NCBI GenBank assembly: GCA_017794825.1
Contig: CP051237.1
Location: 4,916,501-4,980,500 of the forward strand
Reading direction: 5' to 3'
DNA from: Pararhizobium sp.
Lineage (GTDB): Bacteria > Pseudomonadota > Alphaproteobacteria > Rhizobiales > Rhizobiaceae
DNA: 64,000 nucleotides
In this document: piece after piece, positions 6,137 through 48,026 of the stretch
Layout of the letters: each line of letters begins with the position of its first letter
How positions within the stretch are numbered: position 1 is the first letter of the stretch
Program-made: the position numbers and the translations under genes
The notes under the pieces: model-generated
Databases searched by the model: none
What the model was told of the DNA's origin: nothing
What the model saw: the letters and a program-made list of their open reading frames with translations, nothing else

Positions 6137-8758
6137 ATGGCGCAAAAGAAACCGGCGGGGAGCTATCCGACACCGATTGTTGACCGGAACGCAAAGCCGG
6201 GAACGGTGGTCCGCCTCGTCATTCTGGGCATAGCCCTTATCGCGGCGGCCGGCGCGATCATTCTGGTCGAGGGACGTTTCAGCTCGAGCTTCGGTCTCGG
6301 GTTGCTCTTTGTGCTGTCGATGCTCGGCGTCCTCTATCTGCTTTTGCATTTCATCGGTTTTTTACAGGTCCTGCCGAAAGGCGGCGGCGACGAACTCTCG
6401 CGGCTTTTCCTGGACAGCCATCCGGAAGGCGTGATCGTCACCGACGGCCGGGGCAGGGTGGTCTACGCCAACCAGACCTATGCGAAACTCACGGGAGCGA
6501 CGACAGCCGAAACGGTGCAGTCGATCGAAGCGCTTCTGTCGCGCGACAACATGGCTTCGGAAGCGCTCTACAGGCTCGCCAACAAGGTGCGCGACGGCTC
6601 CGGAGGCCAGGAGGAATTCCGGCTCATCAAAAGGCTGGACGGCGTCGAGGCCGACGAAGCCTTGCCGTGCTGGTATCGTCTCAAGGCGCGTTCGCTGCGG
6701 ATGGAGACGGTCCGCGAGCCTTTGTTCGTCTGGCAACTGTCCGACATCACCGCAGAGCGCGAGGAGCAGGAAAACGTCTTCAAGCAGCTGCAGCACGCGA
6801 TCGACTATCTCGACCACGCTCCGGCAGGCTTCCTGTCGGTCGGCGAGGATCGCGAGATCGTCTATATCAACGCGACGCTCGCAGAGTGGATCGGGCTTGA
6901 CCTGACATCCTTCACGCCGGGATCCATCCGGCTCGGCGACATCATCGCGGGCGACGGCATGGCGCTGATCGATTCCGTGCAGGCCGCTCCCGGCCTCAAC
7001 AAGACCGCCAGCCTCGATCTCGACATGCTGGCGCGTGACGGCCGCAGTCTTCCTGTGCGTCTCGTCCACAACGCTACGGCGACCCGCGACGGCGCTCCCG
7101 GCGAAAGCCGCACCATCGTCCTGCAGCGCAGCGGCAAGGACGGCGACAGCGACTCCGCGGCCGCGGCTGAAATGCGCTTCACCCGCTTCTTCAACAACAC
7201 GCCGATGGCGATCGCCTCGGTCGACAGCGACGGCCGTATCCTGCGCACCAATGCGCCTTTCCTGAAAATGTTCTCGGGCGCGATTTCCCGCGACGATCTG
7301 GAACGCAAGGCGCCGTTTACGCAGGTCGTCCGGGAGCCCGATCGCGCCGAACTGCAAATGGCGATCGCGGATGCGTCGCGCGGCATCGCCGACATCGCGC
7401 CCGTCGACACTGGTCACGCCGCCGACGGCGAACGGCATTTCCGCTTCTATGTTACGGCCGTGATCGACAGTCCCGCCGGCGAGGAAGCGGCCATTATATA
7501 CGCCGTCGAAACCACCGAGCAGAAGGCGCTCGAGGCCCAGATGGCCGAAAACCAGAAGATGAACGCCGTCGGCACGCTCGCCGGCGGCATCGCGCATGAT
7601 TTCAACAATGTGCTGACCGCGATCCTTCTGTCGGCGGACCATCTGCTTCTGTCGCTGCGCCCGTCCGACACCAGCTTCGCCGATCTGATGGAGATAAAGC
7701 GCAACGCCAACCGCGCGGCCGTCCTCGTACGCCAGCTGCTCGCCTTCTCGCGCAAGCAGACGATGCGGCCGACGGTGCTGTCGATGACCGATGTGATCGG
7801 CGACCTCAGGATGCTGATCGACCGGCTGACCGGCGCCGATGTCAAGCTCGAAATCGAATACGGCCGCGATCTCTGGCTCGTGAAGACCGATCTCGGTCAG
7901 TTCGAACAGGTGATCATCAACCTCGCCGTCAACGCCCGCGACGCCATGCCCGAAGGCGGCGTGCTGACCGTCAGAACCGCCAACGTGACCGGAGAAGAAG
8001 CCGGAAAGCTCAACTATCGCGGGCTCGAAGCGGCTGACTATGTGCTGGTCGAGGTGCAGGACGAAGGCACCGGCATCGCGCCCGAACTTATGGACAAGAT
8101 TTTCGAACCCTTCTTCACCACCAAGGATATCGGCAAGGGAACCGGCCTCGGTCTGTCCATGGTCTACGGGATCATCAAGCAGTCGGGCGGCTATATCTAT
8201 CCAATCTCCGAGGTGGGCAAGGGCACGACGTTCCGCATATTCCTGCCGCGCTATGTCGAGATTGTGGTGGAGGCGGAGCCGGCGAAGGTCGAAACCGGCG
8301 CCAAGGCGTCCGAGCCTGCTTCCGAAGAGCCGAAGACCGGCGCCGCCGCCGAGAAGAAGCCTGCTGCGTCCGAAACGCGGGACCTGACCGGCGCCGCCAC
8401 CGTGCTGCTTGTCGAGGACGAGGAGGCCGTGCGCCGCGGCGGCAAGCGCATGCTGGAGACAAGGGGTTACTCCGTGCACGAGGCGAGTTCGGGCGTGGAG
8501 GCGCTGGAGATCGTCCGGGAACTCGAAGGCGCGATCGACATCGTGGTGTCCGACGTCGTCATGCCGGAAATGGACGGACCGACCTTGCTGCGCGAATTGC
8601 GCAAGGATTATCCGGATCTCAAGTTCATCTTCGTCTCCGGCTACGCCGAGGAGGCATTCGCGAAAAACCTTCCCGAAGACGCCAATTTCGGCTTCCTTCC
8701 GAAGCCATTCTCGCTCAAACAGCTCGCGACCGCGGTTCGCGAGGTGCTCGACGACTGA
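6137..8758 (+). CDS. cckA: cell-cycle hybrid histidine kinase/phosphatase CckA
   Basis: An 873-residue hybrid kinase. It has two transmembrane helices near the N-terminus (about 24-43 and 52-74), PAS-type sensory domains (about 85-455), a HisKA domain with the H-box GGIAHDFNN (phospho-acceptor His487), a HATPase domain (N-box [15 protein letters not shown]-boxes DEGTGIAP and [10 protein letters not shown]), a Pro/Ala/Glu-rich linker and a C-terminal receiver domain with phospho-acceptor Asp806 in [11 protein letters not shown]. This is the layout of CckA, which phosphorylates CtrA and CpdR through ChpT to control the alphaproteobacterial cell cycle. The ATG at 6137 follows a GCGAGG site; an in-frame extension upstream has no family character. 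Neither chpT nor ctrA is in the window. Confidence 0.95.
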
Positions 8759-8840
8759 CCTTCATTTTCATCCACATTCGTGCCGCAATGTTGGTATTGA
8801 AGCCGACTCCGGCATTTCATACAGGAGAGGGAATATTCCA

Positions 8841-9488
8841 ATGTATAAGCAACTGGCGGCCCTGATCGCAGGCGCGCTTTTTCTGACCGCGTGCACGACC
8901 GATCCCTATACCGGACAGCAGAAGGTCGGCAATACGGCGACGGGCGCTGCGCTGGGCGCAGCCGCAGGCGCTGGTCTCGGGCTTCTCGCAGGCGGCAACG
9001 ATCGCCGCAATGCGCTGGTGGGCGCAGGCATCGGCCTGCTCGCCGGAGGCGCGATCGGCGCCTATATGGACCGTCAGGAAGCTGAACTGAGGGCGCAGTT
9101 GCAGGGCACCGGAATTTCGGTGACACGCGTCGGCAACAATCTCGTGCTGAATATGCCGTCCAACATCACCTTCGCGACCGACCAGGCGAATATCGACACC
9201 GGGTTCTATCCGACGCTGAATTCCGTTGCGATCGTATTGAACAAGTACAATCAGACGCTTGTCGACGTTTATGGATTTACCGATTCAACCGGATCGGCGC
9301 AGTACAATCTTGAGCTTTCGCAGCGCCGCGCCCAGTCGGTCGCAAGCTATCTGGGCGGCCAGGGCGTTAATCGTCAGCGCATGTATGTCACCGGCTTCGG
9401 ACAGGATCGTCCGGTGGCGAGCAACGCGACAGCCGAAGGCCGCGCGCAGAACCGCCGTGTGGAAATCCAGATCGCGCCGCTGAGCTGA
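8841..9488 (+). CDS. OmpA-family outer-membrane lipoprotein
   Basis: A 215-residue lipoprotein. The signal peptide ends in lipobox LTAC (Cys18). A Gly/Ala-rich glycine-zipper segment follows at about 30-70, then a C-terminal OmpA-like peptidoglycan-binding domain (about 105-210) with the diagnostic YGFTDSTGS, LSQRRAQSVASYL and GRAQNRRVEI segments. It probably anchors the outer membrane to peptidoglycan. The ATG at 8841 is preceded by GGAGAGGGAA. It follows cckA by 82 bp, with a hairpin after it, and is likely an independent transcript. Confidence 0.92.
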   Translation: MYKQLAALIAGALFLTACTTDPYTGQQKVGNTATGAALGAAAGAGLGLLAGGNDRRNALVGAGIGLLAGGAIGAYMDRQEAELRAQLQGTGISVTRVGNNLVLNMPSNITFATDQANIDTGFYPTLNSVAIVLNKYNQTLVDVYGFTDSTGSAQYNLELSQRRAQSVASYLGGQGVNRQRMYVTGFGQDRPVASNATAEGRAQNRRVEIQIAPLS

Positions 9489-9507
9489 CGCTCGCCGATT
9501 GCTGACC

Positions 9508-9527
9508 GCCCGCGCATCTGCGCGGGC
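9508..9527. terminator. hairpin between convergent ompA-like and psuG genes
   Basis: GCCCGCGC and GCGCGGGC form a perfect 8-bp stem with an ATCT loop between two convergent genes. There is no T-run on either side, so termination is inferred from position only. Confidence 0.4.
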
Positions 9528-9542
9528 GAACGGACTGCTTAC

Positions 9543-10460
9543 TCAACCTTCCGCCGACGCGACCGCGATTTCCGCCGCCAGCCGCGCGTTGCTGGCGACG
9601 AGGGCGATGTTGGTCTGCAGGCTGCGGCCATCGGTTATGTCGAAGATTGCGGCGAGCAGGAATGGCGTCACGTCCTTGCCGCTGACGCCGCGCTCCTCGG
9701 CCATCTGCAGGGCGGCGGCGATATAACCTTCCATCTCTTCACGCGGAATCTCGTCGGTCTCCGGCACGGGATTGGCGACCAGCATCCCTGCGGTTACGCC
9801 GTATTGCGTTCGCGCCCGCTGAAAGGCGGCGATCTCGCCGGCCGTGTCCAGCCGAAGGGGCGACGCAAGTCCCGAATCGCGAGACCAGAAGGCTGGAAAG
9901 GCGTTGCCGCCAAAGGTTACGACCGGCACGCCTTTGGTCTCCAGCACCTCGAGCGTCTTCGGAATGTCGAGGATCGCCTTTGCCCCGGCGCAGACGACCG
10001 TCACAGGCGTGCGGGCTAGTTCCTCGAGATCGGCTGATATGTCGAAGCTCGTCTCCGCGCCGCGATGCACCCCGCCGATGCCGCCGGTCGCAAACACGCC
10101 GATCCCGGCGAGATGGGCGCCGATCATGGTGGCTGCGACCGTTGTCGCGCCGGTGCGTCCGGTTGCAATGGCGAAAGCGAGATCGGCGCGAGAAACCTTG
10201 AGCGCGTCTGTCGTCTGCGCGAGCTTTTCGAGCTCCGCGTCTTCAAGGCCAACATGCAGCCGGCCCTCGATCACCGCGATCGTCGCGGGCGTCGCGCCGC
10301 CGTCGCGAATGATCGCCTCCACGCTTTTCGCCATTTCGAGGTTGCGCGGCCACGGCATGCCATGGGTGATGATTGTGGATTCGAGAGCCACCACCGGCCG
10401 GCCGGCGTCGAGCGCCGCGCGAACGTCAGTGGAATAGGCGATGTCGGGGGCAGGGGTCAC
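9543..10460 (-). CDS. psuG: pseudouridine-5'-phosphate glycosidase
   Basis: A 305-residue PsuG, which cleaves the C-glycosidic bond of pseudouridine 5'-phosphate to uracil and ribose 5-phosphate. Family hallmarks include VALESTIITHGMPWP near residue 27 (catalytic Glu region), the GRTGATTVAATM stretch, the FATGGIGGVHRGAE metal-site segment and the C-terminal GKDVTPFLLA. Start is a GTG at 10460 that overlaps the psuK stop (GTGA), so the two are translationally coupled. With PsuK it forms a complete two-step pseudouridine catabolic route for salvage of RNA-derived pseudouridine. Confidence 0.94.
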   Translation of the reverse strand: MTPAPDIAYSTDVRAALDAGRPVVALESTIITHGMPWPRNLEMAKSVEAIIRDGGATPATIAVIEGRLHVGLEDAELEKLAQTTDALKVSRADLAFAIATGRTGATTVAATMIGAHLAGIGVFATGGIGGVHRGAETSFDISADLEELARTPVTVVCAGAKAILDIPKTLEVLETKGVPVVTFGGNAFPAFWSRDSGLASPLRLDTAGEIAAFQRARTQYGVTAGMLVANPVPETDEIPREEMEGYIAAALQMAEERGVSGKDVTPFLLAAIFDITDGRSLQTNIALVASNARLAAEIAVASAEG

Positions 10461-11419
10461 GCTGGGTATCCGTTTGTTTGTCGATTGAAGAAGGTTGCAG
10501 GGGCGATTTCCGCGGTCGCCGTGTCGAGGGCGGGTGTGTCGAGAGCGCTTGAAACCGCGTCGGCCGAGCGCACGGTAATCCAGGCGGCCGCCACGCCGCG
10601 GCGCACGGCTTCCGCGAGGTCGAGCCCTCGCGCAAGGCCGTCGAGCGTCGCGGCGGCAAGCGCGTCGCCGGCGCCCGTGACGTCGGCAAGCCCGTCTGTC
10701 TCGCGCGTCGCAACGCTGAACGCGTGCTCGCAGTCAAAGGCGATCACCGGGCGCGCGCCGCGCGTAATCACCGCGCATTTCAGTCCCCTGGCCTTGAGGG
10801 CGCCCGGCCAGGCGTCGGCGTCGCTGTCGGACCCGCACAACTCCCGCGCTTCGGCCTCGTTCAGGAACAGCGCCGAGAGTCTGTCGAGAAGCGGTTCGAA
10901 ACGCACGACCTTGGCCGGTGAAATCGCGATCGCGGCGACCGGTTTGCCGCTCGCCGCCGCAGAGGAGACCAGCGCCGCAAGCGAAGCCGTCTGGAAATTG
11001 GCGTCGCACAGGATCCATTCGGCCGTATTGACGGCCTCCCGAATGTGCCTGCGGGAAAATTGCCGGGGTCCGAACCGGTCGTAGAGTTCCATGTCGGCGA
11101 CGGCGATCACCAGATTGCCGTCTTGTTCCAGTATGGCCGAATAGCTGGGCGTCGTCCGGTCGAGAAAGATCTGGGGCCTGAAGTCTACGCCGGCTTCCGC
11201 TGCGCGACGCTCCACGGCCTCTGCCGCCGCGTCGCCGCCGCCGACCGAAACCATGGTCACCGCATTGCCCAGTTGCGCCAGGTTGCGCGCCGCGTTGAAA
11301 CCGCCGCCGCCCGGCTCCTCGCGCCATCGGCCCGGATTGCTCGCGCCCGGAACGGTTCGGGTGGATATGCGGGCGCGCCGGTCGAGATGGGCGCCGCCAA
11401 GGACGAAGATACGTGCCAT
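10457..11419 (-). CDS. psuK: PfkB-family kinase, probable pseudouridine kinase
   Basis: A 320-residue ribokinase/PfkB-family sugar kinase. The N-terminal substrate site is GGGGFNAARNLAQLG, and the C-terminal PfkB signature with the catalytic Asp and anion hole is DVTGAGDAL (about residue 260). The family alone does not fix the substrate. The coupling to psuG makes pseudouridine kinase (pseudouridine to its 5'-phosphate) the best reading. It is transcribed divergently from the downstream amidohydrolase gene. Confidence 0.88.
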   Translation of the reverse strand: MARIFVLGGAHLDRRARISTRTVPGASNPGRWREEPGGGGFNAARNLAQLGNAVTMVSVGGGDAAAEAVERRAAEAGVDFRPQIFLDRTTPSYSAILEQDGNLVIAVADMELYDRFGPRQFSRRHIREAVNTAEWILCDANFQTASLAALVSSAAASGKPVAAIAISPAKVVRFEPLLDRLSALFLNEAEARELCGSDSDADAWPGALKARGLKCAVITRGARPVIAFDCEHAFSVATRETDGLADVTGAGDALAAATLDGLARGLDLAEAVRRGVAAAWITVRSADAVSSALDTPALDTATAEIAPATFFNRQTNGYPA

Positions 11420-12867: not shown

Positions 12868-13947
<1,080 letters not shown>

Positions 13948-13981
13948 TCCATCCCCGCTGATATTTGTCAGCGTTCCCAGG

Positions 13982-14016
13982 AACCGGCGGCGTCTTCTTG
14001 ATGTCGCCGGTTTTGC
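13982..14016 (+). terminator. rho-independent terminator of recA
   Basis: AACCGGCG and CGCCGGTT form a perfect 8-bp stem (13982-13989 with 14005-14012) followed by a short T-run, 35 bp after the recA stop. Confidence 0.75.
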
Positions 14017-14166
14017 TTGTGTTCGCGGTCGATCGCATCAGTGCGCAGCGCGCCTCAAACGACCCCGGTCGAGTATCTGGACAGTCTGCGGCGAGATGGA
14101 TAAAAGCCGCATGGATCAAGGTGGCCGTAACGGGGTTGCCACAAGGCGTGTTGTAAAGGGCTGGCA

Positions 14167-16827
<2,661 letters not shown>

Positions 16828-39045: not shown

Positions 39046-40080
39046 TCAGGCGGTTGAATCGCCGAACAGCTTCCGCCAGGCGGGCATGACGTCTCCGGGC
39101 GCCGAAGCGGCTTCATAGACGCCCCGGGCGATCGCGCGGGCTGTGACGGCGCCGGCGGCGGCGCACATGTCGAGCATCTGGTCTCCATCCGGTCGCTTGC
39201 CGCTTGCGCCGGTCGCGACTGCGAAGATCAGGTCCCCGTCATGGGCGGTGTGGGTCGGCCAGATTGCACGGGCGAATCCGTCATGGGCGGATATCGCGAG
39301 CCGCTTGGCTTCGGCCTTGGTCAGGGCGGCGTCTGTGGCGATGACGCCGATGGTCGTATTTGCGCCGTGTTGCGGGCTCCGGCCACGCTTTATGTCGCGG
39401 AATTTGATGCGCAGGTCGGTGGCGGTACCGCCGAATTCACCGGGCAGGCCCAACCCCCCGAATTCGCCGTCAATTTCGAACGGCGCAGCCCAGAAATGCG
39501 GTCCTTCTCCAACCAGAACAGACCCCATCGGATTGACCGCAACGAGCGCGCCGAGGGTGATGTCGTCTCCCACCCGGACAGATGCGGAGCCTAGGCCTCC
39601 CTTGGCGGTCGCCGACAGCGCGCCCAGGCCGGCGCCGGCTGTTCCGATATCGAAGGTTTTCGCGGCGCTTTGTGCTGCCGCATATCCCAGTTCCCGATAG
39701 GGAGAATACCGGCCCCACTCCTTGTCCCCGCCATTGGTAAGGTCGAAGATGATGGCGGATGGAACAATCGGAATACGGAACGGGCCGGTCTGGAATCCGA
39801 CGCCCTGTTCGCGCAGGGCCGCCTGAACCCCGGACGCTGCATCCAGACCGAAAGCCGAACCGCCGGAAATCGCAATGGCGTCGACGTGTTCGACGGCGTT
39901 GTGCGGTTCCAGGAGGTCGGTCTCGCGGGTGCCCGGCGCACCGCCCAGGACCTGCACCGCGGCGGTCGCCGGCTGTTGGCAGATGAGGGCGGTCACGCCC
40001 GACTTCAGCGTATCGTCGGCGGCGTTGCCCACAAGCAGCCCGTTTACATCGGTTATGAGATTGAGGGGGCCTGGTTTCAC
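39046..40080 (-). CDS. P1 family (DmpA-like) peptidase
   Basis: A 344-residue member of the DmpA/ornithine-acetyltransferase-like autoprocessing N-terminal nucleophile fold. It has ITDVNGLLVGNA at the start, AIAISGGSAFGLDAASGV, TGPFRIPIVPSAIIFDLTNGG and GANTTIGVIATDA (about residue 243), the site where the chain would self-cleave to expose the nucleophile. Some members are D-aminopeptidases or beta-peptidases; this one's substrate is unknown. GTG start at 40080 behind AGAGGT. It lies 22 bp after an ABC-type binding protein gene, suggesting a joint transcript. Confidence 0.88.
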   Translation of the reverse strand: MKPGPLNLITDVNGLLVGNAADDTLKSGVTALICQQPATAAVQVLGGAPGTRETDLLEPHNAVEHVDAIAISGGSAFGLDAASGVQAALREQGVGFQTGPFRIPIVPSAIIFDLTNGGDKEWGRYSPYRELGYAAAQSAAKTFDIGTAGAGLGALSATAKGGLGSASVRVGDDITLGALVAVNPMGSVLVGEGPHFWAAPFEIDGEFGGLGLPGEFGGTATDLRIKFRDIKRGRSPQHGANTTIGVIATDAALTKAEAKRLAISAHDGFARAIWPTHTAHDGDLIFAVATGASGKRPDGDQMLDMCAAAGAVTARAIARGVYEAASAPGDVMPAWRKLFGDSTA

Positions 40081-40102: not shown

Positions 40103-41215
40103 TCACTGGCTGACAGCCGGGACGAATTCGACGTCCCGCCAGACCATCAGACGCATGGGATTGTTTCGACGGTCGCCGTCGGCTGCGAAGGAGATCGGAC
40201 CGAGCGCGGTCCGGAAAGCGCCTTTCGACATTTCCTGCGCTACGCCGGTGTCGGCCGATTCTGCAGCCCGCTTGGCTGCAAGCGCGATCTGGGCTGCGGC
40301 GAAGGCGGGAATTCGATATCCGTTTGGAGGCGTTTCCGCTCTCTCGAAAACGGCTCGGGCGGCAGCGGCCGTGTCGAGCGTTTCAGCTCCGGGCAACATG
40401 ACCGCGAACACGCCGTTGGCGAGCGGCGGATCACCGTCCGGCGCGTTCAGCGCATCACCGCCCATGAAGGTCAACTCCAGCCCGGCTTCCGCTGCGTCCC
40501 TTGCAATAATCGCCGCATCGGGGCGGTCTCCGCCAAGGAAAATATGCGTTGCGCCTGATTTCTCGAGACGTCGCACCAGTGGAAACTGCTTTTCCTGCGA
40601 CGGGCGGTAATTGTCGACGAATACCGGCTTGATGCCGGTCGTTTCGAGCGCCAGCCGCACGGACTCGGCAAGTTCACGACCGTAGACCGTGCCGTCGTCG
40701 ATGAGCGCCAGCGGTTTGCCCGACCATTGCGTGGCTATCACCTCGGCTATCTTGTCGGATTCGTCTGCAACGCTCGGAGCCAACCGGTAAAACTCCCAGC
40801 CGAAGCGGTCGGCGTCTTCGGAAACGAGCTCGGAACGCACGCCGAGAGTGATCGCCGGGATGTCCGAAGAGGAAAGAATTGGCAGCGCCGACGCCAGGCT
40901 CTCCATGCACAGGAACCCGATGACCACGTCCACGCCGGCTTCGACGAACGCGCTGGCGGCGTCCGCCCCGCTTTCGGCGTCGCAATTGTCCGGTTCGTCG
41001 ATGATGTCAACGATTGATCCGGGCACCGTGTCGGCGAATATCCTGACCCCTTGGTCGACCTGTTGACCCAGAATGGAAAAATTGCCTTCGGAAGGAGCAA
41101 ATATGCCGATACGCAACCCCTGTGGGCGCGACTGTGCATGCGCCATTCCGGAGGGATCCACCAAAACGGAGAGAAACAGCGCAGCCAGCAACCTGTTGGA
41201 CCTGAATATTACCAT
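40103..41215 (-). CDS. branched-chain amino-acid-type ABC substrate-binding protein
   Basis: A periplasmic-binding-protein type 1 (Leu/Ile/Val-binding family) of about 370 residues with a signal peptide (NRLLAALFLSVLVD, cleavage near AHA). The mature chain has the two-lobe pattern: GLRIGIFAPSEGNFSILGQQ, then LALIDDGTVYGRELAESV and FMGGDALNAPDG. An alternative ATG eight codons upstream (41239) is possible. No permease or ATPase gene is nearby; its only neighbour in the run is a P1-family peptidase. It may serve a transporter encoded elsewhere or act as a sensor. Confidence 0.82.
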   Translation of the reverse strand: MVIFRSNRLLAALFLSVLVDPSGMAHAQSRPQGLRIGIFAPSEGNFSILGQQVDQGVRIFADTVPGSIVDIIDEPDNCDAESGADAASAFVEAGVDVVIGFLCMESLASALPILSSSDIPAITLGVRSELVSEDADRFGWEFYRLAPSVADESDKIAEVIATQWSGKPLALIDDGTVYGRELAESVRLALETTGIKPVFVDNYRPSQEKQFPLVRRLEKSGATHIFLGGDRPDAAIIARDAAEAGLELTFMGGDALNAPDGDPPLANGVFAVMLPGAETLDTAAAARAVFERAETPPNGYRIPAFAAAQIALAAKRAAESADTGVAQEMSKGAFRTALGPISFAADGDRRNNPMRLMVWRDVEFVPAVSQ

Positions 41216-41520
41216 GTGTTGTCGGCTTTCGAAGCGCATTCCAGTTCGTTCGGTGGACGTATGTGACGAATCAATATGTTTGGACGCCGTCGGAAGCAGC
41301 CTGAAGGGATGCAGTGGCCGGCGCCGGTTCGCCGGCGCGATTTGGACACGAGCGGGCGGCGTTCGTCAATGTAAGGGTTCGAAAAATCGAACGGCGAGCA
41401 AGACCATGGACGGACTTCGACGGGTTGAAGGGTAAGAAAAATTCTCCAGTGGTGCTTTCATTCAAGGCCAATCCATTTATGTAGGACGATACGCCGCGGA
41501 CCTCGCGACGGCGTCGGAGT
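41216..41520. other. divergent intergenic region with one inverted repeat
   Basis: This is 305 bp between the binding-protein gene and the flavin reductase gene. It contains an inverted repeat at 41317-41336 (GCCGGCG / CGCCGGC around CCGGTT) with no T-run. Short open frames here lack ribosome sites and family character. The promoter of the molybdenum-hydroxylase maturation run must lie in this region, but no box stands out. Confidence 0.5.
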
Positions 41521-42021
41521 ATGCAATTGTTGGACAGCAAAACAGTCAACGCACAGGATTACCGGGACGCCATGGCGCATTACGCCGGCCATGTGCAACT
41601 CGTCACCACGGAGCACGAAGGCGTCCGGCGCGGCGTGACGGTGACGGCGGCCTGCTCGGTCTCCGACAATCCTCCCACGGTTCTGGTCTGTCTGAACCGG
41701 TCCAATGAGAACAACGGGATTTTCCTGGAGAGAGGCTATTTCGCGCTGAACACCCTGGCGGTTCAGCATCAGGAAATGGCCGCGGCGTTTGCCGGGTTCG
41801 ACAACAAGACCGCCGATGAACGGTTCGCCATGGCTCGGTGGGACACGCTCGTCACCGGATGCCCGACATTGATGGACGCCACGGCGGTTTTTGATTGCCG
41901 GCTGATTGAGCATAAGATCGTCGCGACCCACATGATCCTGTTCGGGGAAGTCGTCGGCTTGCGTGAAACCGAAAGTCAGCAGGCGCTGATGTTTCTGGAG
42001 CGCACCTGGAGAACATTGTAG
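41521..42021 (+). CDS. flavin reductase family protein
   Basis: A 166-residue split-barrel FMN-binding protein of the flavin reductase (RutF/HpaC) family: HVQLVTTEHEGVRRGVTVTAACSVSDNPPTVLVCLNRS at about 23-60, then FALNTLAVQHQEMAAAFAG. These proteins reduce FMN or FAD with NADH for partner oxygenases. Four bp separate it from the MoxR gene, so it leads the maturation run. It could feed the FAD monooxygenase gene at the end of the run or support an unseen oxidoreductase; neither is proven. Confidence 0.87.
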   Translation: MQLLDSKTVNAQDYRDAMAHYAGHVQLVTTEHEGVRRGVTVTAACSVSDNPPTVLVCLNRSNENNGIFLERGYFALNTLAVQHQEMAAAFAGFDNKTADERFAMARWDTLVTGCPTLMDATAVFDCRLIEHKIVATHMILFGEVVGLRETESQQALMFLERTWRTL

Positions 42022-42025
42022 TCAG

Positions 42026-42955
42026 ATGTCGAAAAACGAAATCAAGGCCTTTCCCGCGACAATCAGCGATACGCAAACGCTTCTCGAAAGCCAGGACTAT
42101 GTCGCGAGCCGCGCGCTCGCCACGGTGTTGTATCTGGGACTCAAGATGCGCCGGCCGATCTTTCTTGAAGGCGAGGCCGGCGTCGGCAAGACCGAAATCG
42201 CAAAAGTGCTCTCCCAGGCGCTGGGCAGGCCGTTGATCAGGCTTCAGTGCTACGAAGGCCTCGACATTTCCTCGGCGGTCTATGAGTGGAATTATCCGGC
42301 GCAGATGCTCGAGATCCGCATGGCCGAAGCCACCGGAGAAACCAGTCGCGATAGCATAGAGAAGGGTATCTTTTCCGAACGCTACCTGATCAAGCGCCCC
42401 GTTCTGCAGGCGGTGTCGGCGCCGATCGGCGAGGCCCCGGTTTTGCTGATCGACGAACTCGACCGCACGGATGAGGCCTTCGAGGCTTTCCTTCTTGAAA
42501 TCCTTTCCGACAACCAGGTCACGATACCGGAAATCGGCACGATCAAGGCGGCGGAACCGCCAATCGTGATCATTACGACCAACCGGACGCGCGAGATCCA
42601 TGACGCCTTGAAGCGGCGTTGCCTCTATCACTGGGTGGATTATCCGGATGCGGCGACGGAACTGGAGATCATCAGGCGCAAGGTTCCGGGCTGCAATGAG
42701 GACCTGTCGGCCGAGATCGTCGCCTATGTTCAGAAACTGCGCGAGATTGAGCTATTCAAGAACCCGGGCGTCGCCGAAACGATCGACTGGGCGACGGCTC
42801 TGACCGAACTCGACAAGCTGGCGCTCGATCCCGAAACCGTGTCTGACACTTTGGGAACGCTGCTGAAATATCAGGACGACATTGCCCGGATCGAGGGCAG
42901 CGAAGGCCGGAAAATCCTCGAAGAGGTCAAATCCGGTCTGTCCGCGACACAGTAG
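42026..42955 (+). CDS. MoxR-type AAA+ ATPase, CoxD-like
   Basis: A 309-residue MoxR-family AAA+ ATPase: Walker A GEAGVGKTE (about 46-54), Walker B VLLIDELDRTDE (about 137-148) and sensor-1 IIITTNRTREIHDALKRRC. With the VWA protein encoded next (6 bp gap) it forms the CoxD-CoxE pair, which in Oligotropha (carboxydotrophs) helps assemble the copper-sulfur-molybdenum site of CO dehydrogenase. MoxR-VWA pairs act generally as chaperones for metal-cofactor insertion. No CO dehydrogenase subunit genes are in the window, so the client is unknown. Confidence 0.9.
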   Translation: MSKNEIKAFPATISDTQTLLESQDYVASRALATVLYLGLKMRRPIFLEGEAGVGKTEIAKVLSQALGRPLIRLQCYEGLDISSAVYEWNYPAQMLEIRMAEATGETSRDSIEKGIFSERYLIKRPVLQAVSAPIGEAPVLLIDELDRTDEAFEAFLLEILSDNQVTIPEIGTIKAAEPPIVIITTNRTREIHDALKRRCLYHWVDYPDAATELEIIRRKVPGCNEDLSAEIVAYVQKLREIELFKNPGVAETIDWATALTELDKLALDPETVSDTLGTLLKYQDDIARIEGSEGRKILEEVKSGLSATQ

Positions 42956-42961
42956 AGCGAG

Positions 42962-44176
42962 ATGACCACCACCGATCAGGCAGTGGAAACCGGCAGGCTG
43001 GCCGACAATATCGTCTTTTTCGCGCGGACCCTGCGAAAGGCCGGAATGCGGATCGGACCGGCGGCCGTGCGCGACGCCATCGAGGCCGTCCGCGTTGGCG
43101 GTATCGGCTCACGCGAGGATTTTTACTGGACGCTGCACGCCGTTCTCGTCAATCGCCGCGAGGATCATGTCCTGTTCGACGAGGCGTTCCGGCTGTTCTG
43201 GCGGTCGCGCGACCTCGTTGAAAAGATGCTGGAACTGTTTTCGCCGGTCGCGCCGCCCAACCGGCCGCGCGAAAAACCGCGCGCCGGTGAAACCCGCATC
43301 AACGATGCGCTCGCCGAAAACCACCGCAATCCGCCGACGCGTGACGCGCCGCCGGAGATCGAGGTCGACGCGCGGCAATCGAGTTCCGGGACGGAAGTCC
43401 TCAGATCGCTCGATTTTGCGCAGATGACGGCAGCCGAGATGGAGGAGGCGAAGCGGGCTCTCGCTCAGATGGTGCTGCCGGTGGATATGGTTCGCACACG
43501 CCGCTATCGCCGCGCTTCGAATGGCCGGCACATCGATCCTCGCGCCACGATGAGAACCGCCTTGAGACGTGGCGGTTCGATTATCTTGCCCGAGTTTCGA
43601 AAACGTAGGGAGATCCATCCGCCGCTCGTCGTGCTCGCCGATATCTCCGGATCCATGAACCAGTACACGCGCATCTTCCTGCATTTTCTGCACTTTTTGA
43701 CGGAGAAACGCCGCAAGGTTCATACGTTTCTCTTCGGCACGCGATTGACGAACGTGACACGGCAAATGCGTTTCAAGGATCCCGACGTCGCTGTAGAGGA
43801 GTGTTCGGGTGCTGTGGAGGACTGGTCCGGCGGCACGCGTATCGCCGAGACCCTGGAAGAGTTCAATCGCCTGTGGTCGCGACGCGTTCTTTCACAGGGC
43901 GCGGTTGTGCTGCTGATCACCGACGGTCTGGAGCGGGAGGTCGACAACGATCTTGAAGCGCAGATCGAGAGGCTGCACAAATCCTGCCGAAGGCTCATCT
44001 GGCTCAATCCGTTGCTGCGTTTCGACGGGTTCGAGGCGCGCGCAGGCGGCGTGAGAAAGATGCTTCCGCATGTTGACGAGTTTCGCGCGGTGCACAATCT
44101 TAACGCCATATCCGATCTGGTGGCGGCGCTGGACGGAGGCGGAAAGGACGATGTGGATCCACGGCGGTTCCTTTAG
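42962..44176 (+). CDS. VWA-domain protein, CoxE-like
   Basis: A 404-residue CoxE-type protein. The N-terminal helical half (about 1-180) carries an acidic/basic central stretch. The C-terminal von Willebrand A domain holds the MIDAS residues DISGS (about 228-232), the GGTRIAE segment (Thr at the second metal contact) and LITDGLER. It is the partner of the MoxR ATPase encoded just upstream. Together they probably act as an energy-driven chaperone in molybdenum-hydroxylase maturation. Confidence 0.9.
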   Translation: MTTTDQAVETGRLADNIVFFARTLRKAGMRIGPAAVRDAIEAVRVGGIGSREDFYWTLHAVLVNRREDHVLFDEAFRLFWRSRDLVEKMLELFSPVAPPNRPREKPRAGETRINDALAENHRNPPTRDAPPEIEVDARQSSSGTEVLRSLDFAQMTAAEMEEAKRALAQMVLPVDMVRTRRYRRASNGRHIDPRATMRTALRRGGSIILPEFRKRREIHPPLVVLADISGSMNQYTRIFLHFLHFLTEKRRKVHTFLFGTRLTNVTRQMRFKDPDVAVEECSGAVEDWSGGTRIAETLEEFNRLWSRRVLSQGAVVLLITDGLEREVDNDLEAQIERLHKSCRRLIWLNPLLRFDGFEARAGGVRKMLPHVDEFRAVHNLNAISDLVAALDGGGKDDVDPRRFL

Positions 44177-44202
44177 ACGGCCTGGTCCGAGGGAGATTTT
44201 TC

Positions 44203-44532
44203 ATGAGCGATGTCGAAGATATTCAGGATCCGCTCTCCATTGCGGAGAAATGGAAGGATGAGGGCCGGGACGTTGCGATAGCAACTGTCGTTCAGACCTG
44301 GGGATCGGCGCCGCGTCCCGTAGGCAGCCATCTGGTGATCGACGGCGAAGGCAACTTTGAGGGGTCCGTATCGGGAGGCTGTGTCGAAGGCGCGGTGATC
44401 AGCGAGGCGCTGGATGTCATTGGAGCCGGCAAACCGAAGATGCTTGAGTTCGGCGTCGCCGACGAGACAGCCTGGCGGGTTGGGCTTTCCTGCGGAGGAA
44501 AGATATCCGTCTATGTCGAAAGGCTGGTTTAG
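44203..44532 (+). CDS. XdhC/CoxI N-terminal domain protein
   Basis: A 109-residue protein equal to the N-terminal XdhC_CoxI domain: ATVVQTWGSAPRPVGSHLVI, the GSVSGGCVEGAV motif with a conserved Cys, and LSCGGKISVYVERL. XdhC binds molybdenum cofactor and delivers its sulfurated form to xanthine-dehydrogenase-type enzymes. The ATG at 44203 lies behind a GAGGGAGA site. The stop at 44530-44532 is TAG and is in the same frame as the next gene, which starts only 3 bp later, so the two halves together equal one normal XdhC. Confidence 0.9.
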   Translation: MSDVEDIQDPLSIAEKWKDEGRDVAIATVVQTWGSAPRPVGSHLVIDGEGNFEGSVSGGCVEGAVISEALDVIGAGKPKMLEFGVADETAWRVGLSCGGKISVYVERLV

Positions 44533-44535
44533 ACG

Positions 44536-45228
44536 GTGGATTTCCAACTCCTGCAAAAACTCAATGCGGAGCGGGCGGCGCGGCGCGCCGTCATCCATGT
44601 CACCGGCGTCGATGATGACGACGAGCAACTCGTCCTCGAACAGGACCAGATATCCGGGGAACTCGGAGAGGCCGTCGTCAAGGCCTTCAATTCAGGCAAA
44701 TCATCGATGGTCGAGATTGCGGGGCGCAAGACGTTCCTCAATGTCTACCTCCCTCCGGCCCGCATCGTCGTTATCGGCGCCGTCCACATCAGTCAGGCGC
44801 TTGCGCCCATGGCCAAACTTGCCGGTTTCGACGTGCGCGTCATCGATCCGCGCGGTGCATTCGCCACGGAAGCGAGGTTCGCCGACGTCGATCTGGTTGC
44901 TGAATGGCCCGATGAAGCGCTCGAAACCAGCCCGCTCGACGCCTATACCGCGCTTGCGGCGCTGACCCACGACCCCAAGATCGACGATTTTCCGTTGCAG
45001 GCGGCGATCGATGCGCAATGCTTCTACATTGGCGCGCTTGGCAGTCGAAAGACGCATGCGTCCCGCGTTGCGCGGCTCGTCGAGGCAGGCAAGTCAGAGG
45101 CCGAGATCGGGCGCATTTCCGCGCCCATCGGCCTCGATATCGGAGCGGCAAGCCCATCCGAAATCGCTGTCGCAATTCTTGCGGACATCATCCAGGCGCT
45201 CAGAAAGCGAAAGGCGGTCGCCCAGTGA
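44536..45228 (+). CDS. XdhC Rossmann-domain protein
   Basis: A 230-residue protein equal to the C-terminal XdhC Rossmann domain: IVVIGAVHISQALAPMAKL nucleotide site, VIDPRGAFATEARF, and FYIGALGSRKTHASRVARL. It begins with a GTG 3 bp after the TAG of the N-terminal-domain gene, in the same reading frame, and its stop overlaps the start of the MoeA/MocA fusion gene. It presumably works with the N-terminal half to bind and sulfurate molybdenum cofactor. Confidence 0.88.
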   Translation: MDFQLLQKLNAERAARRAVIHVTGVDDDDEQLVLEQDQISGELGEAVVKAFNSGKSSMVEIAGRKTFLNVYLPPARIVVIGAVHISQALAPMAKLAGFDVRVIDPRGAFATEARFADVDLVAEWPDEALETSPLDAYTALAALTHDPKIDDFPLQAAIDAQCFYIGALGSRKTHASRVARLVEAGKSEAEIGRISAPIGLDIGAASPSEIAVAILADIIQALRKRKAVAQ

Positions 45229-46859
45229 AATTTGGTCCCGTTGGGCTCGATGACGCAATTGGCGCAGTGCTTGCGCACTCCGTCAAGGCGGGCGCGCGAC
45301 GGCTGAGAAAGGGCACGGTCCTCGGCGAGGACGAAATCGCCATGCTCCGCGACGCCGGCATTGGTGAAGTCATCGTGGCGAGGCTTGACTCCGGGGACGT
45401 TGGAGAGGACGCAGCCGCAGGCGCGCTCGGCAATTCCATGGTCGAGCCGGGACTGACTGCGGAGTCCGCGTCGACGGGAAGGGTCAATCTGGTTGCGCGC
45501 TGGAATGGCCTGTTTCGGGTCAATCGTGACCGGGTTGACGCGTTCAACCGCATTGATCCGGCGATAACGCTCGCCACCGTGCCTGATTGCACGACCCTTC
45601 TGGCGGGCGAGATGGCGGCGACCGTCAAGATCATCCCGCTCGCCGTTTCTGAAAGTCCGTTGGCGGATGCGCTTGCGCTTCTGGAGGGAGACGCCATTTT
45701 TCGCGTAAAGCCCTTTGAATCGCGCGCCGTCGGTTTGATCGCCACCGAACTGCCGGCCCTGAAACCTTCTGTCATGGACAAGACCGCGCGTCTGCTTGCC
45801 CAACGGCTCGGAGTCTCTGGCAGCGAAATCAAGACGGAACGTCGCGTTCCACACGATGCGAAGGCGGTCGCTGGCGCCATTCGCGCGTTGGCTGAGGACT
45901 GCGACATGATCGTCGTTTTCGGCGCGTCAGCAGTTGTGGACGATCATGACGTGATCCCGGCGGCGATCGAGCTTGCCGGTGGGGCTGTCGAACGCGTCGG
46001 CATGCCGGTCGATCCGGGTAATCTTCTTGTGCTCGGACGGCTTGACCAAATCCCTGTCATCGGCGCGCCAGGATGCGCGCGCAGTCCGAAGGAAAACGGC
46101 TTCGACTGGGTGCTTGCCCGCATTCTCGCCGGTGAAACGCCAACCTCCGACGTCATCGCCGGAATGGGCGTCGGCGGTTTGCTGGCGGAAATCCCGAGCA
46201 GGCCTTCGCCGCGTCAGGCGGGAGAAACGCCAGGGAGCCTCAAGCCCGTGCTGGAGATCGTCATCCTCGCCGCCGGCAAATCCAGCCGTATGCAACAGGG
46301 ACCATCCGGCGACGCTCCGCACAAATTGCTCGCCGAGTTTGACGGCGTTCCCCTGATACGCCGCACGGTCGAAACGGCATTGGCGTCTGGCGTCGGCGCC
46401 GTTCATGTAGTGACCGGCTACCGCGCTGCGGACATGGAAACGGCTTTGGCCGGGCTCGACGTCGATCTCGTACCTTGCCCTGATTACCACGACGGCATGG
46501 CGTCTTCGCTGCGCGCCGGTCTTGCCGCGCTGTCGGAAAAGACCTCCGGAATGCTTGTCTTGCTTGCGGACATGCCATTTGTCTCGGCGGATGATCTTCG
46601 CCGTCTCGCAAAGGCTTTCGATGATGCTGGCGGCCAGTCGATCACTCGCGCAGCCAGCGGGAACAAGCGAGGCAATCCGTTGATCTTGCCCAGAAGCACA
46701 TTCGTCGCCATCGGCCAGTTGGAAGGCGATATCGGAGCCAGGAGCATCGTCGCCTCCAGCGGTCTCGATGTCGTCGACGTCGATATCGGAGACGCCGCGC
46801 TGATAGACGTGGATACGCGGGAGGCGGTGACGGAAGCCGGAGGCGTATTGAAGGGCTGA
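45225..46859 (+). CDS. MoeA-like/MocA-like fusion, molybdenum-cofactor protein
   Basis: A 544-residue two-domain protein. The N-terminal about 335 residues are a molybdopterin-binding domain of the MoeA/MogA kind (MVVFGASAVVDDHDVIPAAIE-like segment near 225-245 with GMPVDPGN). The C-terminal about 190 residues are a MobA-like nucleotidyltransferase of the MocA type (VILAAGKSSRMQ signature, HKLLAEFDGVPLIRR, LLADMPFVS). MocA makes molybdopterin cytosine dinucleotide, the form used by xanthine-dehydrogenase-family enzymes. Start is a GTG at 45225 overlapping the stop of the XdhC half (GTGA). A 69-codon longer frame is an overlap artefact. Confidence 0.88.
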   Translation: MKFGPVGLDDAIGAVLAHSVKAGARRLRKGTVLGEDEIAMLRDAGIGEVIVARLDSGDVGEDAAAGALGNSMVEPGLTAESASTGRVNLVARWNGLFRVNRDRVDAFNRIDPAITLATVPDCTTLLAGEMAATVKIIPLAVSESPLADALALLEGDAIFRVKPFESRAVGLIATELPALKPSVMDKTARLLAQRLGVSGSEIKTERRVPHDAKAVAGAIRALAEDCDMIVVFGASAVVDDHDVIPAAIELAGGAVERVGMPVDPGNLLVLGRLDQIPVIGAPGCARSPKENGFDWVLARILAGETPTSDVIAGMGVGGLLAEIPSRPSPRQAGETPGSLKPVLEIVILAAGKSSRMQQGPSGDAPHKLLAEFDGVPLIRRTVETALASGVGAVHVVTGYRAADMETALAGLDVDLVPCPDYHDGMASSLRAGLAALSEKTSGMLVLLADMPFVSADDLRRLAKAFDDAGGQSITRAASGNKRGNPLILPRSTFVAIGQLEGDIGARSIVASSGLDVVDVDIGDAALIDVDTREAVTEAGGVLKG

Positions 46860-46964
46860 CCAGTCCAAGGGTCTATTTGACCGGTGGAACTGCAGCCCGG
46901 CCATTCTGCCACGTATTGATATACGGTATGTTCAGGCCCAGTTTGGAAATCGGAGGGGCCTGTG

Positions 46965-48026
46965 ATGAATGTGATGGTCGTTGGCGCGGGGCCGACCGGA
47001 CTGACTGCTGCGGTCGAGCTTGCAAGGCGCGGCGTCGATGTCCGTATCGTAGACAAGCGCGCCGAGGGCTCCGGCTTCTCTCGGGCCGTTGGCATTCTGC
47101 CCAAAAGTCTCGAACTGCTGGAAGCGTCGGGCGCAAGCGCACGATTGCTCGATGAAGGCGTCAGAATTCAGCGCGTCCATGTTTTTCAGGGAAAACAGGA
47201 ACTACTCACGGTATCGCTGGGTCAGCAAGGCGCTGACGGTGGTTTCATTCTCGCGTTGGCGCAGGACCGAACGGAAGCGATCCTGCGCGACTGCCTCTCA
47301 AACCATGGCGTCGCCGTGGAATGGTCGCGAGAACTGACCGATTTCAGGCAGGAGGGCGACCGCGTCTTCGCGGTCTTTGCGGACGGCGCGACGGAGGACT
47401 TCGACTACCTGGTTGGGGCCGACGGCGTTCGAAGCCGCGTTCGCGACGCGCTTGGCGTCGACTATGACGGGATCAATCTGCCAGAAACCTGGTCGATCGC
47501 CGATGTCGACGCAAACGGCTGGCCCTTTGACAAGAGCTTTGTCGTCTTCAGGCTGGATCATGGCCGGGTGGCGGTGGTTGTGCCGCTCGAAGCCAATCGA
47601 TACCGGGTCATCTCGAACACGGACAACGCGCTTGCGGCGCTGCCTTTGCCGCTGGCGGTCACGAATATCCATCGCGAAGGCGAATTCAAGATATCCGTTC
47701 GTCAGGTCGACCGATACAACGTCGACCGGGTCTATCTCGCCGGCGACGCAGCCCACTGTCATTCGCCGGTCGGGGGAAGGGGCATGAATCTGGGTATCGA
47801 CGATGCGGCGGAATTCGCCAGGAGGCTCGCAGACGGAACGCTCGAAGGCTACGGCGAAAGTCGACACGCGCGCGGCAGGCGCGTCATCAAGGCCAGCGAG
47901 GGTCTGAGAAAATTCGTGACGTCGAAATCCGGTATCAACGCCATGCTGTTTCGCGTTTTGACGGCGGCCGTCGGTCGCGTGCCCGCCCTGCAACGTGGTC
48001 TTGGCAGGGCGATGCTGTACGACTGA
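46965..48026 (+). CDS. FAD-dependent aromatic-type monooxygenase
   Basis: A 353-residue flavoprotein monooxygenase of the PheA/UbiH-like group: dinucleotide fold VVGAGPTGLTAAVELARRG at the N-terminus, the DG motif VGADGVRSRVRDALG, and the second FAD motif VYLAGDAAHCHSPVGGRGMNLGIDDA. ATG at 46965 behind CGGAGGGG; a GTG one codon earlier is possible. It follows the maturation run after 105 bp and could be transcribed with it. The flavin reductase at the head of the run is not required by this class, which reduces its own FAD. Substrate unknown. Confidence 0.87.
   Translation: MNVMVVGAGPTGLTAAVELARRGVDVRIVDKRAEGSGFSRAVGILPKSLELLEASGASARLLDEGVRIQRVHVFQGKQELLTVSLGQQGADGGFILALAQDRTEAILRDCLSNHGVAVEWSRELTDFRQEGDRVFAVFADGATEDFDYLVGADGVRSRVRDALGVDYDGINLPETWSIADVDANGWPFDKSFVVFRLDHGRVAVVVPLEANRYRVISNTDNALAALPLPLAVTNIHREGEFKISVRQVDRYNVDRVYLAGDAAHCHSPVGGRGMNLGIDDAAEFARRLADGTLEGYGESRHARGRRVIKASEGLRKFVTSKSGINAMLFRVLTAAVGRVPALQRGLGRAMLYD

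Follow-up and report, generated by a model that had tools for sequence, protein, structure and literature searches.

Gene content and packing of the cassette

The window, which is the whole 64,000-nucleotide stretch of Pararhizobium sp. DNA analysed here, carries six genes in the same orientation at 41521-46859:

41521..42021, + strand: flavin reductase (FlvR; Pfam Flavin_Reduct, 5e-32)
42026..42955, + strand: MoxR-type AAA+ ATPase, CoxD-like (AAA_5, 8e-13; Walker A motif GEAGVGKT)
42962..44176, + strand: VWA/CoxE-like protein (VWA_CoxE, 2e-73; MIDAS motif DISGS)
44203..44532, + strand: XdhC/CoxI N-terminal half as its own ORF (XdhC_CoxI, 7e-26; Cys60 in GSVSGGCVE)
44536..45228, + strand: XdhC C-terminal Rossmann half as its own ORF (XdhC_C, 2e-38)
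45225..46859, + strand: MoeA-like/MocA-like fusion, 544 aa (NTP_transf_3, 1e-37; MoCF_biosynth, 5e-7; LAAG motif)

The intergenic gaps from FlvR through the C-terminal half of XdhC are 4, 6, 26, and 3 bp in the ORF list. The ORF of the fusion is listed from 45018, and its likely start is the GTG at 45225 because the alignments of relatives begin at residue 1 of the 544-residue product, which would overlap the XdhC stop by 4 bp. This spacing and the Pfam domains bear out the packed six-gene cassette that had been recognised in a preliminary description of the locus. The VWA_CoxE match reached 247 bits against a Pfam cut-off of 26.4, and the XdhC_CoxI and XdhC_C domains, located in two ORFs, both exceeded theirs. 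For MoxR, AAA_5 was above its cut-off and the MadB ATPase model, at 272.7 bits, was under its cut-off of 475. Judged by the motif, Cys60 is a candidate equivalent of Cys82 of R. capsulatus XdhC. A scan for sigma-70-like promoters gave none (shuffle mean 1.4), and the terminator scan gave 5 matches, fewer than the shuffle mean of 8.0. Four plasmids or parts of them matched partially in a plasmid search; the one annotated record that we examined has no features at that place.

As the preliminary description had stated, no structural subunit is present: tblastn with the large, medium, and small subunits of the same genome found none in the 64-kb window, and all 11 large-subunit matches of the genome fall outside it.

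The last gene had been described as a MoeA/MocA fusion. The C-terminal half of that assignment stands, since this part is a MobA/MocA-like transferase. Its best NCBIfam model was matur_MocA_YgfJ (TIGR03310), with 118.6 bits against an equivalog cut-off of 186.45; we keep the name MocA-like, though this cut-off was missed, because the LAAG motif and the fold agree. We take LAAG to be the MocA-type and LAGG the MobA-type motif. Two MobA-like genes scored above 100 bits in the genome, one with LAAG in the cassette and one with LAGG at 4863148, and the cassette gene is the only MocA-type one of the two (six weaker matches were set aside). In the search with the predicted fold, Rv0371c-type proteins were near the top (nucleotidyltransferase fold; Z 24.1, 2.1 Å, 188 residues), and GlmU and IspD chains were nearly equal (Z 20.7-22.9). 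Because the nucleotidyltransferase domain filled the results for the whole model, a separate prediction and fold search was made for the N-terminal part. Its MoeA assignment is ambiguous: MoCF_biosynth was the sole Pfam domain seen, and gephyrin E/Cnx1E and MoaB/MogA matched the predicted fold about equally well. Residues 166-304 gave Z 13.6 at 2.2-2.5 Å against gephyrin E and Z 13.5 at 3.0 Å against MoaB, and alignments extending to residue 1 had an r.m.s.d. of about 17 Å.

Layout of the cassette in Rhizobiaceae and other families

We used VWA as the marker of the MoxR-VWA pair in a genome-wide profile of 199 genomes of the family and found it in 145 of them; weak VWA matches in three genomes (G077, G095, and G115) were counted as absent. 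From the 145 VWA-positive genomes, 60 loci were fetched, hand-picked and mostly one per genus. For the 54 genomes lacking VWA, 20 were fetched at XdhC, among the matches listed. MoxR was present in all 60 sampled family loci and went with VWA in every family (60/60), named (80/80), and other-family (20/20) locus.

The grouping of the genes is not due to chance, since 58 of the 60 family loci have the same five-gene content of MoxR, VWA, both XdhC halves, and MoeA/MocA, to which the flavin reductase is added in 50. Judged by stops and frames, the XdhC halves are separate ORFs in 58/58 family loci holding both. Fifty-nine of the 60 family loci are stand-alone cassettes with no structural subunit in the stretch, indicating that the layout is old and ruling out local decay of a cox locus. 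S-L-M adjoins MoxR-VWA in G012 and also in G173, where a divergent XdhC lies alongside. We rejected the FAD monooxygenase gene at 46962-48026 as a member of the cassette, as it occurs in 2 of the 60 loci. Among the neighbours, a divergent substrate-binding protein (53/60 loci) and the gene beyond it (51/60) are conserved and have no evident link to molybdenum.

Outside Rhizobiaceae, 20 loci of the same order were compared, and in eight of them MoxR-VWA-XdhC is immediately preceded by S-L-M; joined S-L-M-MoxR-VWA-XdhC runs also occur in Bosea, Microvirga, and one uncultured Rhizobiales bacterium. At least one structural subunit is in the stretch in 11 of the 20 loci and none in the other nine, one of which is on a contig of just 4.2 kb. 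In four of the loci without a subunit (L261, L262, L265, and L269), neither XdhC nor MoeA/MocA was detected, and likewise in four named loci (L233, L246, L249, and L250). The direct upstream position of S-L-M in 8/20 loci suggests that the cassette and the S-L-M operon probably derive from a single ancestral operon that came apart. By parsimony, the structural genes would have parted from the maturation genes in Rhizobiaceae, where the flavin reductase heads the maturation operon. Both sets are still together in several other Hyphomicrobiales families, a state that is common, not universal, and there may have been several splits.

Hydroxylases of the genome and a form II-type CoxL

The Pararhizobium genome encodes 11 hydroxylase large subunits versus two XdhC genes, one beside xanthine dehydrogenase (XDH) and the other in the cassette. 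All 10 non-XDH large subunits lie outside the cassette. The inventory, which the preliminary description had proposed, revealed that the hydroxylases do not each have a complete accessory set of their own: XDH is accompanied by an XdhC and hydroxylase L023 by a MoxR-VWA pair of its own, and the other nine large subunits have no MoxR or VWA match in their 20-kb surroundings. The MoxR of L028 was considered as a CoxD-type partner and rejected (29% identity, with a VWA match barely above cut-off).

One of these large subunits, L018, is a CoxL located at C1:2278609-2281011, 2.7 Mb from the cassette. It has the active-site motif AYRGAGR and the S-L-M gene order, as in form II CoxL, and the motif recurred in 24/24 loci scanned. 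L018 scored 622.7 bits with the NCBIfam model for the aerobic CO dehydrogenase large subunit, under the cut-off of 991.15, and its best NCBIfam model was glyceraldehyde dehydrogenase alpha, with 654.1 bits against a cut-off of 790. The genome contains two more RGAGR large subunits, L021 (AYRGAGR) and L022 (PYRGAGR), which are 41-44% identical to L018.

A probable maturation operon with two tiers of clients

We consider it likely that the cassette acts in trans as an operon for the maturation of molybdenum hydroxylases, with clients in two tiers and a biochemistry that we infer from genomic data. In the first tier, MCD, the cytidylated form of the cofactor, would be made by the MoeA-like/MocA-like fusion and then bound, sulfurated, and inserted into non-XDH hydroxylases (putatively up to 10 in this genome) by the split XdhC. 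In the second tier, MoxR and VWA would act mainly on the form II-type CoxL as an ATP-driven pair completing the active site.

The first tier is consistent with the distribution of cassette-type XdhC, told apart from XDH-type XdhC by E-value: it occurs in 168 of 173 genomes with at least two large subunits (missing in G029, G095, G115, G175, and G193) versus 0/26 genomes with one or none. It is unlikely that the L018-class CoxL is the sole client of the entire cassette and that the other hydroxylases mature without the cassette or otherwise. Such an exclusive role would agree with the outgroup operons joining S-L-M with the maturation genes, and with G069, which has only two large subunits, XDH with an adjoining XDH-type XdhC and an L018-class CoxL as the sole non-XDH hydroxylase, and possesses both VWA and cassette-type XdhC. 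However, XdhC, usually together with MoeA/MocA, is kept in genomes without L018-class CoxL, several of which contain PaoC-like hydroxylases (e.g. G036, G083, G133, G169, and G197), and the sole other XdhC of the Pararhizobium genome is the one beside XDH. FlvR-XdhC-MoeA/MocA also stay together without MoxR-VWA in 7/20 XdhC loci of VWA-less genomes.

For the second tier, we compared the presence of VWA and L018-class CoxL in 194 genomes, after dropping G065, G144, G181, G095, and G115, whose CoxL was not among the matches listed. Both genes were present in 138 genomes, VWA only in 1, CoxL only in 3, and neither in 52; if G065, G144, and G181 had no CoxL, the VWA-only count would rise from 1 to 4, and if G095 and G115 had it, the CoxL-only count would rise from 3 to 5. 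Across Rhizobiaceae, MoxR-VWA thus occurs almost only with L018-class CoxL. The dependence is not strict because G114 and G184 have an open L018-class CoxL and no VWA match, and G149 has the whole cassette without L018-class CoxL. G077 was scored as another exception, yet its VWA match is weak and its assembly consists of 440 contigs. "One client" here means one profiled class, that of L018 among the three RGAGR large subunits L018, L021, and L022.

It is also improbable that the entire cassette, including MoxR-VWA, matures the non-XDH hydroxylases in general, even though genomes with cassette-type VWA have on average more large subunits (7.4) than those without (2.4). A control class, the PaoC-like L026/L027, showed no association with VWA in genomes with at least two large subunits (71/15/71/16, p = 1.0), and neither a VWA match nor a MoxR beside XdhC was seen in G159 and G042, which both encode 10 large subunits. 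Moreover, the separate pair of L023 points to dedicated MoxR-VWA pairs. The results as a whole suggest one hydroxylase class per MoxR-VWA pair.

When the comparison was limited to genomes encoding 2-7 large subunits, the link between MoxR-VWA and CoxL persisted (77 with both, 1 with VWA only, 2 with CoxL only, and 24 with neither), although p-values overstate independence because the genomes are related. VWA is variable within nine scorable genera, and L018-class CoxL varies in step in seven; VWA is variable in genus g13 too, which this comparison omits since G115 is a dropped row. A distance list covered 32 genomes hand-picked from the rows listed. That shared ancestry or genome content, and not function, accounts for the co-occurrence is very improbable: both genes are common to related genomes and cassette genomes have more hydroxylases, but the parallel variation in seven genera, the persistence at 2-7 large subunits without a like link for the control class, and the physical joining of both gene sets in other families argue against it.

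The two-tier explanation accommodates both options raised in the preliminary description, since different cassette genes have different clients. Genomic evidence supports several enzymes encoded elsewhere for XdhC and MoeA/MocA, with 10 non-XDH large subunits available, and one enzyme not yet assigned for MoxR-VWA, which tracks the L018 form II-type CoxL.

Flavin reductase and the task of MoxR-VWA

The best NCBIfam models for FlvR were RutF and HpaC, each under its cut-off. FlvR lies within 1 kb upstream of MoxR on the same strand in 51/60 family, 61/80 named, and 1/20 other-family loci, and directly upstream of the N-terminal XdhC half in 9/20 loci without MoxR-VWA. The cysteine of the form I motif binds copper. 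We tentatively put forward a joint pair of readings, which is possible and rather doubtful. First, the conserved task of MoxR-VWA could be completing the sulfurated Mo site and not copper insertion, because the client class has AYRGAGR and not the form I cysteine motif; otherwise form II might have an unrecognised second metal. Second, FlvR could be a new maturation factor delivering electrons for the reductive sulfuration of Moco on XdhC, as its position directly upstream of XdhC in loci without MoxR-VWA would suggest. The absence of FlvR from the cassette in 9/60 family loci and its direct upstream position in just 1/20 other-family loci oppose the second reading.

Comparison with known systems

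A literature search, thin on subscription journals, returned no title on a stand-alone MoxR-VWA-XdhC-MocA cassette, which is weak evidence of novelty. Form II CO dehydrogenase activity is treated as unsettled in the available parts of two papers (PMC13240472, PMC13203968). The predicted client resembles, by description, the form II coxSLM of Aminobacter and Foliimonas in its S-L-M order and AYRGAGR motif; the portions of these reports at hand give accessory genes for form I and a three-gene cluster for form II, and assign no remote cassette to form II (PMC7645674, PMC8235418, PMC12582533). If form II maturation genes sit in a separate operon, coxSLM expressed alone could yield inactive enzyme, and the cassette genes are candidates for the missing maturation genes.

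The cassette is similar to the form I coxDEFG of Oligotropha carboxidovorans, where MoxR (CoxD), VWA (CoxE), and an XdhC-family protein (CoxF) follow in the same order and where, in the sections consulted, mutants indicated sulfuration for CoxD and copper insertion for CoxE and CoxF (PMC4240915). Unlike coxDEFG, it is unlinked from structural genes, has XdhC in two ORFs (CoxF is one chain), includes the MoeA-like/MocA-like fusion and the flavin reductase in its run, and is linked to a client class with AYRGAGR instead of the form I AYXCSFR. A function in sulfuration or copper insertion as in CoxDEF is putative, by analogy. The action of MoxR-VWA on an enzyme that lacks the cysteine motif of form I would help to show the true roles of CoxD and CoxE. 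The fusion is like MocA in its best NCBIfam model and nucleotidyltransferase fold, and unlike MocA in scoring below the cut-off and being fused to a MoCF-type part.

The closest parallel for a shared XdhC is E. coli YqeB, an XdhC encoded outside a structural operon and proposed for several molybdoenzymes, which the review, in its accessible part, terms speculative (PMC2997495). Like YqeB, the cassette XdhC is not beside its enzyme; unlike YqeB, it sits with MoxR-VWA and MoeA/MocA, and the inventory of this genome and the profile of 199 genomes now attach counts to that published speculation on shared XdhC chaperones.

A stand-alone cassette conserved in the family

The six genes of the maturation cassette are co-directional with intergenic gaps of at most 26 bp, and tblastn with the own-genome large, medium and small hydroxylase subunits gave zero matches in the 64-kb window, in agreement with the preliminary description of a cassette without structural subunits. 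The host genome is a single contig of 6.06 Mb that contains the window. By VWA, the closest named relative is the MAG "Rhizobiaceae bacterium MnEN-MB40S" (97%), and the nearest named relatives are Rhizobiaceae.

Features of the cassette region
41521-46859: cassette, in the order flavin reductase, MoxR, VWA_CoxE, XdhC-N ORF, XdhC-C ORF, MoeA-like/MocA-like fusion (likely start at 45225)
46962-48026 (+): FAD monooxygenase-like gene, 354 aa, 102 bp downstream of the cassette
40103-41239 (-): lone periplasmic binding protein, branched-chain amino acid type
39046-40080 (-): putative P1/S58-type peptidase, beyond the binding-protein gene

VWA was present in 145 of 199 Rhizobiaceae genomes. Among 60 fetched family loci, structural subunits were absent from the stretch in 59, and MoxR, VWA, both XdhC halves and MoeA/MocA occurred together in 58, of which 50 also had the flavin reductase. 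The stand-alone cassette is therefore an old trait of the family. The XdhC halves were separate ORFs in all 58 family loci with both, in 14/15 loci from other families and in 73/74 named loci; they lay in a single open frame in 5/19 loci of VWA-less genomes. Because the split is kept in 58/58 family and 14/15 other-family loci, the two-ORF XdhC (44203-45228) is a stable form rather than a broken gene.

In 53 of the 60 family loci the binding-protein gene flanks the cassette in divergent orientation, as does the putative peptidase gene in 51, and no molybdenum connection was found for either. Among the 60, the FAD monooxygenase-like gene was confined to the two loci from the genus of the window, and its product is shorter than most models of its own family.

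Hydroxylases and maturation genes of the host genome

PF02738 matched 11 large subunits, one of which is xanthine dehydrogenase (XDH; 1344 bits to xanthine_xdhB). Family models identified two XdhC genes, the cassette copy and a copy adjoining XDH; by these counts, one XdhC outside the xdh locus is common to ten non-XDH hydroxylases. CoxE-type VWA matches numbered three: in the cassette, beside hydroxylase L023, and one barely above the cut-off. When 20 kb around each of the 11 large subunits was searched by tblastn with the cassette proteins, a search blind to distant XdhC, MoxR and VWA were seen only near L023, together with a distant MoxR match in the L028 stretch, leaving nine of the non-XDH hydroxylases without a nearby MoxR-VWA pair. 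Of eight PF12804 matches, two scored over 100 bits; the motif is LAAG in the cassette gene and LAGG in the other, at 4863148, which by the LAAG/LAGG rule would be of MobA type.

The L023 hydroxylase is accompanied by a small subunit and a MoxR-VWA pair of its own, but XdhC is absent. Its large subunit is split, the MoCoBD_2 half having an ATG start immediately past the MoCoBD_1-half stop:

L023 (own genome C1:52500-72400), 7604-11404 (-): large subunit in two ORFs, MoCoBD_1 half and MoCoBD_2 half

Two tiers of proposed clients

We propose that XdhC and MoeA/MocA would serve the non-XDH hydroxylases, and MoxR-VWA the class of L018, a form II-type CoxL of the same genome (C1:2278609-2281011). 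Cassette-type XdhC (best E ≤ 2e-35; the weaker class begins at 3.6e-31) was found in 168 of 173 genomes with at least two large subunits, being missing in five, and in 0/14 with one and 0/12 with none. With five unclear rows dropped from the 199 genomes, VWA and L018-class CoxL were both present in 138 and both absent in 52, as against one genome with VWA only (G149) and three with CoxL only (G077, G114, G184). The PaoC-like control class (L026/L027), compared with VWA in genomes with at least two large subunits, gave 71 with both, 15 with the class only, 71 with VWA only and 16 with neither (p = 1.0). VWA varied within nine scorable genera, g13 being excluded as unclear, and L018-class CoxL changed in step in seven, the exceptions being g11 and g63. 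The coupling is strong, not absolute: G149 carries the cassette without an L018-class CoxL, and G114 and G184 carry the CoxL without VWA, no MoxR being seen in their small-large-medium (S-L-M) subunit stretches. In the minimal case, G069, the two large subunits are XDH, with an adjoining XDH-type XdhC, and an L018-class CoxL; its cassette is known from VWA and XdhC matches alone, 0.7 kb apart.

The form II motif AYRGAGR occurs in L018 and in 24/24 scanned loci. The L018 locus has the S-L-M order and a neighbouring SDR gene; a scan of ten proteins of the locus revealed no accessory gene. Among solved structures, CO dehydrogenase large chains are closest to L018, but the top NCBIfam model is glyceraldehyde dehydrogenase alpha, every model being below cut-off. 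Two further own-genome large subunits with RGAGR, L021 and L022, are 41-44% identical to L018, and the client profile covers the L018 class among these three.

Joined arrangements and modularity

An L018-class large subunit lay near cassette genes in 6/80 named loci: three of Bosea and one each of Microvirga, an uncultured Rhizobiales bacterium and a MAG with the label Natronohydrobacter; in the last, the subunit gene lies on the other strand. One more locus, on a short Xanthobacteraceae contig, had the medium subunit only. Twenty other families were sampled with one locus each: 11 loci had at least one L018-class subunit within the stretch and nine had none (one a 4.2-kb contig); eight had the run S-L-M-MoxR-VWA-XdhC-N-XdhC-C, one without a MoeA/MocA match. 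Within the family, S-L-M adjoins MoxR-VWA in G012 and G173, the latter with a divergent XdhC alongside, and G116 has a second MoxR-VWA opposite a 53% S-L-M. In 32 genomes the cassette and the CoxL share a contig; less than 10 kb separates them in two, and between 27 kb and 2.8 Mb in the other 30. Some L018-class S-L-M genes have a divergent XdhC piece next to them (23-31% identity), which may represent another type of XdhC, specific to this enzyme:

L169 (G173), 13812-14672: divergent XdhC piece
L173 (G114), 6428-7309: divergent XdhC piece

At 20 XdhC loci of VWA-less genomes, no MoxR was found in any stretch; the flavin reductase, XdhC and MoeA/MocA stayed together in seven, the flavin reductase lay directly upstream of XdhC-N in nine (spacing 38-211 bp), and XdhC was near a large subunit in four. 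MoxR-VWA therefore appear to behave as a removable pair, the core being formed by XdhC and MoeA/MocA and in many cases the flavin reductase too.

Possible functions and comparison with known systems

XdhC holds Moco during sulfur-ligand addition and then inserts it (PMC2997495). The MoeA-like/MocA-like protein joins a MoCF-type fold, for which gephyrin E, Cnx1E and MoaB are about equally good matches, to a nucleotidyltransferase fold close to those of Rv0371c, GlmU and IspD; the fusion may combine Mo insertion and CMP addition in a single chain. In form I, CoxD is required for ATP-dependent reductive sulfuration, and the copper step needs CoxE and CoxF (PMC4240915). The form I cysteine motif is missing from the L018 class, so that copper insertion would not be the obvious task of MoxR-VWA in this case; we raise this as a question and not as a finding.

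The cassette parts are of known kinds. Neither a remote cassette assigned to form II Cox nor the two-tier client split was found in the literature searched. Form II of Aminobacter and Foliimonas is described as coxSLM without cassette genes (PMC8235418, PMC7645674, PMC12582533). One study notes that coxG, relative to coxD, E and F, is usual in the surroundings of form II, and that CO is oxidised by several strains carrying form II genes only (PMC5747140).
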